NCBI GenBank assembly: GCA_005792285.1
Contig: SXSI01000039.1
Span: forward strand, 1 to 38,550
Origin: Bacteroidota bacterium
GTDB taxonomy: Bacteria; Bacteroidota; Ignavibacteria; UBA10030; UBA8401
Direction: 5' to 3'
Length of the DNA: 38,550 bases
Positions 11 through 6,847 of this stretch are shown piece by piece. The notes beneath the pieces were generated by a model that was not told the origin of the DNA, ran no database searches, and saw nothing but the letters and a program-made list of their open reading frames with translations. Position 1 is the first letter of the stretch. Every line of letters begins with the position of its first letter. The translations under genes were made by a program, and so were the position numbers.

Positions 11-142
11 CACTAACATCGGTTTGCCGCAATGGGGGCTGACGCGCTCTTATGACAGTTTAGTGCTTAACCGAAGTGCTGTACCTCTATTGAATTTTTG
101 TGCTAAAAATCCCCCACTGCGGCAAGCCGAGAACCGTTAGCG
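11..142 (+). repeat. attC-like recombination site 1
   Basis: The outer core arms are CACTAAC (11-17) and GTTAGCG (136-142). The inner arms are 20-38 and 111-129, and 17 of 19 positions are complementary. The loop of about 72 bases contains TTTAGTGCTT at 60-69. Length and architecture fit a folded single-stranded attC site. It closes a cassette whose body lies left of the window. Recombination would be expected after the G at 136. Confidence 0.72.
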
Positions 143-177
143 TTCATTGGTAAACAGGACAGAAACAAAAAAACGGT

Positions 178-327
178 GCATAACAGCACCTACAAGAAAT
201 TGGGGGTTTAGTGCTTCGTAAGAAAGTTTGTTTTATATTTGAAGAGTGTGCTTCGTAAAAGTTTTGTGGTGGCAGATAGTTTAGTGCTTCGAAATCCGCT
301 TCTTCGCCAAGCGCCAAAACGTTAGCG
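178..327 (+). repeat. attC-like site 2, degenerate or chimeric
   Basis: The right core GTTAGCG (321-327) and a left core GCATAAC (178-184) are visible. The inner arms (about 186-207 and 295-315) pair poorly, unlike in the two other sites. The loop holds three copies of a GTGCTTCG motif (212-219, 250-257, 284-291), two of them followed by similar GTAA...GTTTTGT sequence. This looks like two unrelated half-sites joined, or an internal duplication, rather than a regular attC. Confidence 0.48.
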
Positions 328-381
328 GTCATTGTAAAGACGACACTACATAATTCAACAGACAAATATAGAAGAATAAAA

Positions 382-918
382 ATGAAACATTTAATAATTT
401 TACTCGTACTCGGCTTATCCGATAATTCAAACATGAAAGATATTTATAATTTTTCAACTCAATCGAATATCAAGGAATGGCGTATTGTCAACGATGGTGT
501 GATGGGTGGTATATCCAAGAGTTCATTAGTACTTACCGATGAAGGACATGGACAATTTTCAGGTCACGTTTCATTGGCGAACAACGGAGGTTTTGCCTCG
601 TCTCAATTGAACACAACAATCAAACTAGCAGAAGAAAAGACATTTGTTGTTTTGCGGGTAAAAGGCGATGGTAAGAATTATGAGTTTCGTTTGAAAGGCA
701 GTATTTCGCAGTATGAGTCTTATGTGCACCAATTTAGTACTTCAGGAGAATGGGAAAACATTAAGTTAGAAATCAAGGAATTTTACCCGCAGTATCGAGG
801 GAGCAAAATAAACATCCCGAATTTTAATTTTCCAAGCATCAAGCAATTGAGTTTTTTGATTGCCAACAAGCAAGACGAAGACTTCGAATTATTGATTGAT
901 TGGATAGGCTTGGAGTAA
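382..918 (+). CDS. CIA30-family protein, cassette-borne
   Basis: This 178-residue protein matches the CIA30 (complex I intermediate-associated protein 30, NDUFAF1-like) family, a jelly-roll fold related to carbohydrate-binding modules. The visible family hallmarks are W33 followed by VNDGVMGG (36-43), then F59-x-G-x-x-SLANNGGFAS (59-73), then the RVKGDGKNYEFRL strand and a C-terminal L.IDWIGL. In mitochondria the family helps assemble complex I. Bacterial homologues are mostly uncharacterised, so no role is claimed here. The first ATG (382) gives a short hydrophobic leader; a second ATG at 433 would start directly at the domain, and neither has a strong ribosome site. The gene lies alone between two attC-like sites in the same orientation as the cassettes, as expected for cassette cargo. 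Confidence 0.85.
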   Translation: MKHLIILLVLGLSDNSNMKDIYNFSTQSNIKEWRIVNDGVMGGISKSSLVLTDEGHGQFSGHVSLANNGGFASSQLNTTIKLAEEKTFVVLRVKGDGKNYEFRLKGSISQYESYVHQFSTSGEWENIKLEIKEFYPQYRGSKINIPNFNFPSIKQLSFLIANKQDEDFELLIDWIGLE

Positions 919-984
919 ATTCAAAGTTGCCAGCGACTAATTTGAACGAGCGTAAAACACATGCAGCAGCTAAAAAGTCCGACT

Positions 985-1116
985 CGCTAACAGCGGCTCA
1001 GCAAATTGGCGGGTGCAGTGGTTCTATTACAGTCTATTGCAAGGTTCAAGTTCAGTTTTTCAATTGAACATTTGTTCTAAAAATCCGCCACTTCGCAAAG
1101 CCGAGAAACGTTATGA
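985..1116 (+). repeat. attC-like recombination site 3
   Basis: The outer core arms are CGCTAAC (985-991) and GTTATGA (1110-1116). The inner arms are 994-1013 and 1084-1103, with 15 of 20 positions complementary. The loop is about 70 bases. The site is 132 bp long, as is site 1, and follows the CIA30-family gene by 66 bp, the normal place for the attC of that cassette. The ATG at 1113 inside the right core is also the start of the next, decayed gene. Confidence 0.72.
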
Positions 1117-1762
1117 AAAATTTATTTATTCTTTTTCTTTTTTTTTGTTTTAAGTAGTAAAACCGTTTTATCCCAGGACTTAACAATTGATTCTTCAAAA
1201 ATAAAATTTACTATTTATGGATGAGCATCATTACCGCAAGGAGATTTTGGTAGTTCGTCAATCCGAGACGAGAAAGGTAGTTTTGGTAAAACTGGGTTTT
1301 GTGCAATGGCAGAAGGTTCAAAATACTTAACACCCAGTACCGACTTACTTGCTTCGGTTTCATTAAATGGATTAGATACTAAAGAAGTAAAAAAAACAGA
1401 TGGGTGCTCCTCCGGGTTTTTCTGTATCAGCTACTAGCTATATTAATACTTGGGCAATGACTGGCGTAAAGTATAATTTGCCCTACTCTGAGAATGTTAA
1501 AATTTATGGAACTGGACAAATTGGTATTCTTTTTTCAAAACGCCCAGATATCACAATTTCTCTTGGCGATGTATTTTCTGAAACTTCAAACTTTCCATTT
1601 TTAATCCCTGGCACAATTGCTTGGATCGTTGGATTGTATTTAGGATTAGAAGCTGTAGTAGAGTATAATAAACCAGTAGCACCTTTTCAAGCAGCAGCTG
1701 AAGTTGCAGATGAATATAACAAGAAAATAATAAATGAACTTATTATTAGTACTTTAAAATAG
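1113..1762 (+). pseudogene. Decayed outer-membrane beta-barrel protein gene
   Basis: Reading from ATG 1113 gives a signal-peptide start (MKNLFILFLFFCF) that runs into stops after a poly-T tract. Continuing in a shifted frame from about 1154 restores a mature-protein sequence starting SSKTVLSQDL. A TGA interrupts it at 1222-1224, and sequence of the type GDFGSSSIRDEKGSFGKTGF and SKYLTPSTDLLASVSLNGL follows, as in small Bacteroidota beta-barrel (porin-like) proteins. A second shift in the A-run near 1391-1398 leads into an open frame from 1400 to 1762, with VKYNLPYSENVKIYGTGQIG as typical barrel strands. Two frameshifts and one stop make loss of function likely. The C-terminal end (VGLYLGLEAVVEYNKP onwards) is not recognised. 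The start codon lies inside the attC-like core. Confidence 0.72.
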
Positions 1763-1807: not shown

Positions 1808-2326
1808 TCATCCATTTTGTACTAAAATTAATAAATCACAAATCTCACGAACGCAACCATCTCCCCCTTTTTTAGTTGTAATATAATGCGCAATATTTAA
1901 ATTCTGTAAAATTGCATCGCTTGGTGTAATTGCAAGTCCAACAATTTTTAGTAAAGAAGTATCGTTTATATCATCTCCGATAAATGCAACTTCATCCATT
2001 GTAAGATTATATTTTAAAAGTAATTTTTTCATTGCAGGAATTTTATCAAATGAACCTTGATGTAAATCCACAATTTTTAATTTGGCTGCACGGAACTTCA
2101 TAATCGAAGTTGACTCACTTGTTATAACTGCAACTTTAATTCCAGATTTCTGAAGTTGCATAATTCCCATTCCATCCCGAACATTAAATTTTTTCATTTC
2201 CTCGCCGGTTGAAGAATAAAACATACTGCCATCAGTTAAAACTCCATCAACATCAAGAGCGAGCAATTTTATATTTTTAAGTTTTTTTTGTAGTGCCGAT
2301 TTGGAAAGAATTCTGTTAGTTTTCAT
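1808..2326 (-). CDS. kdsC: 3-deoxy-D-manno-octulosonate 8-phosphate phosphatase (KdsC-type HAD)
   Basis: KdsC removes the phosphate from Kdo-8-phosphate in the cytoplasm, giving Kdo for the lipopolysaccharide inner core. The 172 residues match the compact, cap-less C0 HAD phosphatases. The nucleophile motif is LALDVDGVLTDG with D25 and D27; motif II has T69-S70 in VITSES; the motif III lysine is K95 in QGSFDK; motif IV is GDDIND (117-122); GGDGCVRE near the C-terminus is also typical. Length is normal for the family. The gene follows the DegT-family aminotransferase on the same strand with one base between them, so they are probably co-transcribed. The related HAD domains of N-acylneuraminate cytidylyltransferases share these motifs, so activity on another sugar acid phosphate is possible. 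Confidence 0.88.
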   Translation of the reverse strand: MKTNRILSKSALQKKLKNIKLLALDVDGVLTDGSMFYSSTGEEMKKFNVRDGMGIMQLQKSGIKVAVITSESTSIMKFRAAKLKIVDLHQGSFDKIPAMKKLLLKYNLTMDEVAFIGDDINDTSLLKIVGLAITPSDAILQNLNIAHYITTKKGGDGCVREICDLLILVQNG

Positions 2327-5146: not shown

Positions 5147-6847
5147 TTATGATAATTGATATTCACTCATTCCAGACATCATATATTTTAAAAGCATTTG
5201 TAATCTATCTGTTACAATTTTTTTTGTTGCGGCATTTGTAGGATTTGCTTTGTATGCATTCCAAGCATCAGTCCAATAAACATCACTTGTTTGTCCGGAA
5301 AGTAAAGTATTAGTTTTTAAAAAATTTATTTGATCAGTCGAAATTGAAATCGGATATAAATATTCTACAAGTTCTTGAATAAGTGAATTTGGATTCGAAG
5401 GATTTGTAAGTTTGTTAGCTAAAATCAAAGTATCAATTACTAATTTAAATCCACCTCTTGTAGTTCCATTTGTTGAAATTAATAAATCTGAAAATTGCGC
5501 TCTCTTTGGAAATGTATCTGAATTAATCCATAACTCGTAATATTGTGGTTCTTGCCAAAATGCTGGCCATCCGGCAACATTTGGTGGATCTGTCATTTTT
5601 AATTGCATCGATCCGGCAAGATCATAAATATATCTCCAAGTATCATACACAACTGCAATATTTGTTTGTTCCGGAAGTGCTACATAATATTGTTTGAATG
5701 ATGAAATCATAAAATCGATTGGATTTTTTATTACACATCCAATATTTACGAATTCAAAAAAATGAGCGCTATTAAATAATGCATTCAAAACGGGTTTAAT
5801 TTCATAATTACTATCTCGGAAAATTTTTGCTAACGGTGTAATTACATTATCTTCGGCATTTTTATCAATTACATAATAAATAAACCAACGATATAATTTT
5901 CGGCAGATATGTTTTGAAACTTCTTCCTGCGTAAAAATCATTTTTAATAAATCATCTAATTCTTCTTCGCCGGCAGTTGAAGAGTTTTTTCCAATTATAA
6001 TTGTATTATTATAAAATGAAGAAAATTGTTTATTGGTTTTATCATGTTTTGTGTTATCGTAAAAAGTTGTCGGTGGAAAAGTTAAATTATTTATTCGCCA
6101 TCCCGAAAGAACACGAGCTGCTGCTTTAATATCAGCTTCAGTGTAATTTGAATCGGGACCTTTTCCTAAAGTAAAAAGTTCTTGCAATTCTCTTGCATAA
6201 TTTTCATCTGGAGCTGTTGCTGAATTTAGATAACCATTTAAATATCTGAGCATTGCCGGAGTTAATGTTATCTGCTTCGTAAGTGCCTTAAAATTTCCAA
6301 GTGCATTTGTTCGGAGAATATTATTAAGAACATATCCAGATTTTGGCTCATCAATTTCATCAAGTTCAGTTGCAAAATGATTATTCCAAAAGAGAGTCAT
6401 CTTCTCACGAATATTTACAGATTCATTTAACATCAATCCAACCCACCACGATCGTAAAGAAGTTTTTCTATACGAATTTATAACTCCGCTGTTTATCCCA
6501 TAATTATAAATTGCGTTAATCCAAGTATCACCAATTGCAAGTTCTGTATCGTCTCCAATAATTTGTTTTACAGGAGGGGTTGGTAAAGTTTGCGCAGTTA
6601 AAAGGTGATCAACAGATTGTTTTAATGTTTTAGTTTTAAGAAGTGAAATATCTTCGAGTCGTTGAGAAAAAGTAGTTCGTCTTAATAAATGTAATATTTG
6701 TGAATTTCCCCATTCTCCTGAATATGCTTCAAGTCCCGCGGAAGTTCTAGGAACATTTGGAATTGATTTATTAGCAAATTTATAAACTAAATCTTTTGAA
6801 GTATCAACTGGTGAAACTTTAGATCTATTTTTTATTTGCTCAGCCAT
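5147..6847 (-). CDS. DUF1800-family protein
   Basis: The 566 residues match the DUF1800 family in order: ILHLLRRTTFSQRLED near the N-terminus, REKMTLFWNNHFAT, DENYARELQELFTLG, then LSGWRI and the C-terminal DPPNVAGWPAFWQ with YELWINSDTFPKRA. The family almost always accompanies DUF1501, as here with a two-base gap, and is thought to act with it outside the cytoplasm, but its activity is unknown. The N-terminus from the ATG at 6847 (MAEQIKNRSKVS) shows no recognisable signal peptide and no sorting domain, in contrast to its partner. Either the true export signal is absent or the protein travels with the DUF1501 product. Confidence 0.9.
   Translation of the reverse strand: MAEQIKNRSKVSPVDTSKDLVYKFANKSIPNVPRTSAGLEAYSGEWGNSQILHLLRRTTFSQRLEDISLLKTKTLKQSVDHLLTAQTLPTPPVKQIIGDDTELAIGDTWINAIYNYGINSGVINSYRKTSLRSWWVGLMLNESVNIREKMTLFWNNHFATELDEIDEPKSGYVLNNILRTNALGNFKALTKQITLTPAMLRYLNGYLNSATAPDENYARELQELFTLGKGPDSNYTEADIKAAARVLSGWRINNLTFPPTTFYDNTKHDKTNKQFSSFYNNTIIIGKNSSTAGEEELDDLLKMIFTQEEVSKHICRKLYRWFIYYVIDKNAEDNVITPLAKIFRDSNYEIKPVLNALFNSAHFFEFVNIGCVIKNPIDFMISSFKQYYVALPEQTNIAVVYDTWRYIYDLAGSMQLKMTDPPNVAGWPAFWQEPQYYELWINSDTFPKRAQFSDLLISTNGTTRGGFKLVIDTLILANKLTNPSNPNSLIQELVEYLYPISISTDQINFLKTNTLLSGQTSDVYWTDAWNAYKANPTNAATKKIVTDRLQMLLKYMMSGMSEYQLS

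Follow-up and report, generated by a model that had tools for sequence, protein, structure and literature searches.

The left end of the window, the 38,550-nt stretch of DNA analyzed here, carries three long palindromes bounded by TAAC and GTTA, and they raise the question of whether this end belongs to an integron and, if it does, what kind of recombinase moves its cassettes. The window is the entire contig C33 of an Ignavibacteria genome (G000; 1.68 Mb in 50 contigs, 95.6% complete). A first-pass annotation had read the palindromes as attC sites of a directional cassette array with no visible integrase. Since a first palindrome detector missed hybrid sites on another contig of this genome (C45), we built a covariance model, R1, from 53 sites, none of them from the source genome. 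R1 matched all three palindromes, all on the plus strand, which confirmed them as real sites of one kind (Table 1), with cores 3 bases inside the bounds first proposed.

Table 1. Features at the left end of the window, in order of position
Feature	Position (nt)	Strand	Remarks
attC-like site 1 (TAAC...GTTA)	14-139	+	R1, 89.1 bits (E = 1.9e-17); GTTA at 136-139
Gene-less unit between sites 1 and 2	137-321	+	Inverted repeats do not match
attC-like site 2, two arm types combined	181-324	+	R1, 48.7 bits (E = 1.5e-8); GTTA at 321-324
One-gene cassette	322-1110	+	Begins with GTTAGCGGTCATTG; read back, the outer left flank of site 3 gives GTTAGCG followed by a single inserted base
Cassette gene, 178 aa, CIA30-domain protein	382-918	+	PF08547 (E = 9.6e-39)
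attC-like site 3	988-1113	+	R1, 80.1 bits (E = 1.8e-15); GTTA at 1110-1113
Decayed last cassette	1111-1762	+	Frameshifted ORF from GTTATG of site 3; intact remnant at 1400-1762; terminal site absent
Chromosomal flank past the array, HAD phosphatase, KdsC-like by sequence	1808-2326	-	Opposite strand

Sites 1 and 3 are good palindromes, as first described: both fold well, and they are of one length, 126 nt counted from TAAC through GTTA. Site 1 has a 20-bp inner stem and a loop of ~75 nt, and its bottom strand folds slightly better than its top strand. Site 2 contains conserved left and right halves, but these are of different arm types and do not pair, and so it is a poor palindrome. There is no match between its outer left flank and the beginning of its unit, and this hybrid site is possibly inactive. 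Arms of unlike, nonpairing type were also seen at L005:1582-1670, 2546-2670, and 5774-5899 and at L183:3512-3637; such sites look like products of recombination inside the loop or of arm exchange. The single gene per cassette reported at first is found only in the middle cassette, which encodes the CIA30-domain protein; sites 1 and 2 enclose a unit without a gene, and the ORF after site 3 is frameshifted. Beyond this last cassette, the chromosomal genes lie on the other strand. The left end of the window is the distal end of a cassette array, one of the two possibilities that had been considered, and the directional array in an Ignavibacteria genome is borne out.

Where, then, is the recombinase? 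R1 detected six more sites in the source genome, on contigs C1, C3, C28, and C45 (C3 and C45 were found via DNA similarity to the window). At the right end of C3, a gene for a 375-aa tyrosine recombinase is followed by an attI-like palindrome, an alpha/beta-hydrolase gene, and a site that reaches the contig end, so the genome does have a recombinase with an attI-like site and a first cassette, and contig breaks leave it unlinked to the array contigs C33 and C45. The first 5,900 nt of C45 (C45:1-5900) carry three R1 sites and a fourth, divergent palindrome, together with genes for an EcoAI-type restriction subunit R, a sulfatase-fold protein, and a zinc-type alcohol dehydrogenase. Several sites in this genome are partly decayed or hybrid (site 2 and C45a, C45b, and C45d). 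Recurrence next to unrelated genes, on which the first-pass annotation had made its reading depend, was seen here and in many other genomes, and the reading therefore stands on this point. C1 and C28 have single sites. Lone sites away from arrays occur at L183:3512-6148 and L184:4114-5155, one behind a TonB-type receptor gene and another behind two small genes next to uvrB. Cassettes may insert at such secondary places. An ordinary CALIN was considered and set aside as an improbable explanation of the window, as the genome holds the recombinase and a first cassette on another contig and the sites are of another type.

The C3 protein matched PF00589 above the cutoff, identifying a tyrosine recombinase catalytic core, and the catalytic columns (R, HxxR, GH, and Y) are invariant in an alignment of its relatives (A2). 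It is not the IntI-type enzyme with an extra patch that had been anticipated. The integron integrase model TIGR02249 gave 189.7 bits against a cutoff of 265, in a match split in two; the XerA model gave 210 bits against a cutoff of 220. The IntI insertion was absent from the C3 recombinase in the alignment and also in comparison with IntI4 (2a3v). IntI-like traits are present in an SxQNQ region and a C-terminal SPFDDL. In a phylogenetic tree, all 39 sampled close relatives fell into one clade (100%), apart from 20 IntI proteins (100%) and from the genome's own Xer proteins. XerA was the best sequence match among solved structures. A fold predicted with 14 relatives in the input had a mean pLDDT of 81.6 (39 for the single sequence alone); in fold searches covering residues 96 to 365, its best matches were XerA and Xer, and Foldseek placed IntI4 first. 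The protein also has an N-terminal extension of ~75 to 95 aa that forms a domain of ~75 residues, for which we found no family match (HARP appeared at an E value of 0.1 in only 1 of 14 proteins). This domain (L006:4241-4530 and the N termini in A2) has a GA.WS...KAWH.P motif and predicted strands and helices and is apparently tandem in some members.

The sites are as distinctive as the enzyme. The 53 sites used for R1 aligned nearly without gaps over a length of ~126 bp, and 19 of the 20 inner stem pairs showed compensatory changes on both sides. On the assigned structure, 86% of cells were paired, versus 58.6% after shuffling and 30 to 39% when the structure was slid. One column pair, 20/111, fails to pair in all sites but one (52 of 53); it places A opposite C on the top strand and therefore T opposite G on the bottom strand. 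With the three conserved odd positions excluded, wobble pairs favored the bottom strand over the top strand 18 to 1 (P = 8e-5, uncorrected for relatedness). In 40 of 53 sites, the spacer between stem and GTTA is 4 nt longer in the right arm. The shift in stem register that marks extrahelical bases is absent in 43 of 53, whereas most sites in a small set of seven classical IntI-linked ones have two or three such bases. R1 separates the two types: its 188 matches in the loci of recombinase relatives reached 116 bits, against at most 39 bits on 18 classical IntI loci. A blastn search of plasmids with a single site gave no match.

Cassettes of this type begin with GTTANNNNNNANNNN, usually contain one gene, and end in a site of ~126 bp, all on one strand. 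When reverse complemented, the outer left flank of a site reads as the start of its own cassette, namely the bases that follow the previous GTT. Among 64 true neighbors, agreement was 92 to 100% at positions 5 to 9 and 89 to 94% at positions 12 to 15, compared with 30 to 55% for shuffled pairs; because these 64 were chosen from 71 adjacent pairs by agreement at positions 5 to 9, the former values are slightly inflated, and over all 71 pairs they are 89 to 96%. Agreement ended at position 15, with background from position 16, and was 0% at position 11 (n = 64), where the start has A in 64/64 and the flank has G in 57. The flank agreed with the site's own right flank at only ~41 to 45%. Since the flank reads back the start of its own cassette, the cassettes have 15-nt, cassette-specific terminal inverted repeats with one invariant mismatch, and the unit junction is GTT/A. 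In the source genome, the repeats matched at 14/15 positions for C45b, at 13/15 for C45d, and at 14/15 with a bulged T for C3a, and site 2 showed no fit. From these natural junctions, we infer that crossover occurs at GTT/A. The classical core is usually stated as 7 nt. Here, GTTA is conserved, and positions 5 to 7 are variable and often nonpurine, so that GTTRRRY and RYYYAAC do not describe the sites. In a small sample of classical IntI arrays of the phylum (L168, L155, L156, and L166), some pairs showed facing end repeats of 10 to 13 nt, which are longer than this 7-nt core and lack the mismatch at position 11.

The same junction recurs behind the recombinase gene. In 61 loci, an attI-like palindrome lies 3' of the recombinase stop codon at a median distance of 99 nt and ends in TATA(T/A)ACAA, followed by GTTA. 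These loci are constant up to GTTA and variable beyond it, with A at position 11 in 61/61, and the recombinase gene and the cassettes share one reading direction.

To see how far this arrangement extends, we scanned 84,980 species and found 80 loci with recombinase relatives (40 to 73% identity), mainly in Flavobacterium, Algoriphagus, Chitinophagaceae, Pelobium, other Bacteroidota MAGs, and one Ignavibacteria MAG. Many contigs stop shortly 3' of the recombinase gene, as expected if a repetitive array follows. A detector requiring only AAC, arm, loop, arm, and GTTA counted 139 palindromic sites on the downstream side of the recombinase (412 kb) and 14 on the upstream side (774 kb; P of ~1e-47); in shuffled controls, it counted 4 and 7, respectively. 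Among 345 genomes of the phylum, R1 sites (E ≤ 1e-6) were present in 164 and close recombinase relatives, directly upstream of arrays, in 42; sites occurred in 41 of these 42 genomes versus 123 of the 303 others (Fisher's exact test, 7e-14). The sites in those 123 genomes could reflect more distant recombinases, loss, or action in trans. Complete genomes have arrays of up to ~37 kb that start right 3' of the recombinase, with further clusters elsewhere; in G240 the recombinase is at 146.6 to 147.4 kb and sites extend down to 110 kb, and in G456 the recombinase is at 1,361.8 kb and sites lie at 1,363 to 1,373 kb. Three more distant patch-less recombinases (L130, L131, and L134; 45 to 49% identity) also have R1 sites within 20 kb, and the clade that uses such arrays may be wider.

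These data bear on the view that the window is part of an ordinary classical integron, in which a canonical IntI, located elsewhere or since lost, acts on canonical attC sites. Canonical IntI proteins were indeed found in 93 of the 345 genomes, some of which (G169 and G180) hold both types, and the 4-nt spacer asymmetry and short facing repeats are found at classical IntI-linked sites as well. In the same scan, the source genome had no classical IntI above the cutoff. The recombinase that regularly adjoins the arrays is patch-less and falls outside the IntI clade, R1 scores on IntI loci are low, and extrahelical bases are missing from most sites. We therefore regard the classical explanation as very improbable. 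Neither an ordinary CALIN nor a canonical integron fits, because the recombinase is not an IntI and the sites are unlike classical attC; with the patch, the GTTRRRY core, and the extrahelical bases all lacking, this is a variant outside the classical integron family.

Evidence that the units move came from the cassettes themselves. Of the 84 cassettes whose longest ORF reaches 50 aa or more, 78 have it on the array strand. A cassette that is MerTP-like by sequence is common to Pelobium manganitolerans, a Bacteroidia MAG, and an Ignavibacteria-class genome (85 to 94% identity); the similarity starts and stops no more than a few bases from GTT, between flanks that are unrelated. Duplicated cassettes with the same ends and 99.6 to 100% identity occur in two arrays. 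As judged from these natural junctions, cassette-sized units have been exchanged between distant genomes. The palindromes might instead have no part in recombination and be REP-like elements, terminators, or structured RNAs, as long hairpins between genes and lone copies outside arrays (C1 and C28) would suggest. Such elements leave no place for cassette-specific end repeats, an attI junction, or GTT-to-GTT exchange, and an Rfam scan of the left end of the window gave no relevant match. REP elements and terminators were rejected on the ground that natural exchange has its breakpoints at GTT, and we find this explanation scarcely credible.

Parts of this system also accompany resistance genes on Bacteroidota and gammaproteobacterial plasmids (L207:6040-8160, L208:6133-7770, L212:2500-3573, L215:4815-6331, and L216:2295-2421). 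Recombinase relatives on plasmids include that of Chryseobacterium sp. SNU WT5, whose gene is followed by five R1 sites. In Acinetobacter, a truncated recombinase is followed by GTTATGTGCCATTTT, tet(X3), and a left half-site cut by a neighboring IS-linked segment. An Empedobacter brevis plasmid carries, behind an R1 site, tet(X2) with the same start as tet(X3); the end of this cassette reads back as GTTATGTGCCGTTTT, the sole difference being position 11, and its own site scored 70.5 bits with R1. The tet(X) site of a Riemerella plasmid scored 76.6 bits. In Klebsiella, an attI-like palindrome and a recombinase remnant immediately precede blaVEB-3, which starts with GTTAGCGGTAATTTA; in class 1 integrons, blaVEB-1 shares this start and is furnished with a full R1 site (57.1 bits). 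With start, end repeats, and site together, the signature is thus complete for tet(X2) and blaVEB-1, and start and recombinase side are present for tet(X3) and blaVEB-3. The truncated plasmid recombinases are patch-less, and their placement within the clade is not firm. The position of blaVEB-1 in class 1 arrays points to its capture by a classical IntI, which apparently can use R1-type sites; some of the exchange may therefore be the work of IntI. On this sequence evidence, clinical resistance genes, tet(X) and blaVEB among them, appear to stem from the system. A concrete origin can be given for the recombinase fragment that precedes tet(X3), and tet(X2) and blaVEB-1 are tied to the system through their cassette ends and sites.

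Taken together, these results make it highly probable that the window carries the distal array end of a system of integron type whose tyrosine recombinase is Xer-like and lacks the patch. There is strong indirect evidence, from site anatomy and genome comparison, that the system works like an integron, and we propose the following steps by analogy with integrons. The recombinase gene would be followed, ~100 bp past its stop codon, by the palindromic attI-like site and then by same-strand cassettes. The bottom strand of a cassette would fold so that its two 15-nt ends pair, leaving one T·G wobble at position 11, with the inner 20-bp stem stacked behind an asymmetric 1/5-nt spacer. The recombinase would then cut and join at GTT/A, excising the cassette as a circle that could be inserted at attI or beside another site. 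By this analogy, the clade recombinase presumably carries out the recombination and its substrate is presumably single stranded, for which the covariation and the excess of bottom-strand wobbles are indirect pointers. The IntI insertion contacts extrahelical bases, and the combination of sites without such bases and a recombinase without the insertion is the core of our proposal: conserved mismatches would replace the extrahelical bases of classical attC. The insertion is required for integron recombination (PMC9668308).

The same end repeats could be read in another way, with the cassettes as transposon-like units whose recombinase acts on the double-stranded 15-nt repeats while the inner stem stays unfolded. 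The terminal inverted repeats are exact at the cassette ends, and hybrid sites with nonpairing arms persist in arrays, both of which this reading would explain. Strong covariation of the inner stem, conserved asymmetric mismatches, and a wobble excess confined to the bottom strand argue instead for a folded strand, and the units insert in one orientation at one attI. We consider transposon-like units unlikely and favor integron-type recombination of a folded strand.

The prevailing view is that Bacteroidota almost lack integrons. A phylum-wide cassette system, probably missed by tools of the IntegronFinder type, alters this picture. IntegronFinder 2.0 reported complete integrons in Chlorobi, Ignavibacteriae, and one Salinibacter but not in other Bacteroidetes (PMC9024848). 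The literature searched (preprints and most subscription papers lay outside it) contained no description of a patch-less cassette system of Bacteroidota, and the system of Bacteroidota and Ignavibacteria presented here is widespread and apparently undescribed. It is likely, in our judgment, that it represents a second integron class of these groups, with a patch-less Xer-like recombinase, structurally distinct sites present in about half of the sampled genomes, and a role as the platform that passed tet(X) and blaVEB on to Gammaproteobacteria, in part via capture by class 1 integrons.

Among known systems, the simple "integron-like" tyrosine recombinases of Smyshlyaev et al. (2021; PMC8138268) are near; the parts of that report considered here describe neither arrays, sites, nor a Bacteroidota system. 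With Xer proteins (XerA, XerC/D, and XerH), the recombinase shares its catalytic domain, and XerA is its best match in sequence and, with Xer, in fold. The genome's own XerC/D-type proteins are distant and form a separate clade, which places the recombinase outside XerC/XerD, and its ~126-bp hairpin sites stand in arrays, in contrast to single dif sites. The window contig by itself resembles a CALIN in having sites but no recombinase, and differs from one in its site type and in the recombinase and first cassette held on another contig. The system resembles the classical integron in several ways: its tyrosine recombinase adjoins an attachment site, its cassettes, most of them with a single gene, form an array with one direction, and its hairpin sites have TAAC/GTTA cores and 4 additional nt in the right arm. 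Crossover at GTT and movement of the cassette as a unit, both judged here from natural junctions, are common to the two as well. The system differs in a recombinase that lacks the IntI insertion, bears an N-terminal extension, and is encoded on the cassette strand with attI at its 3' end, the opposite of the usual layout. It differs also in a palindromic attI, in sites of ~126 bp without extrahelical bases, and in its cassette ends, whose 15-nt repeats always mismatch at position 11. Because the IntI insertion and the extrahelical bases are missing together, strand choice by integron recombinases becomes testable by comparison of the two systems.
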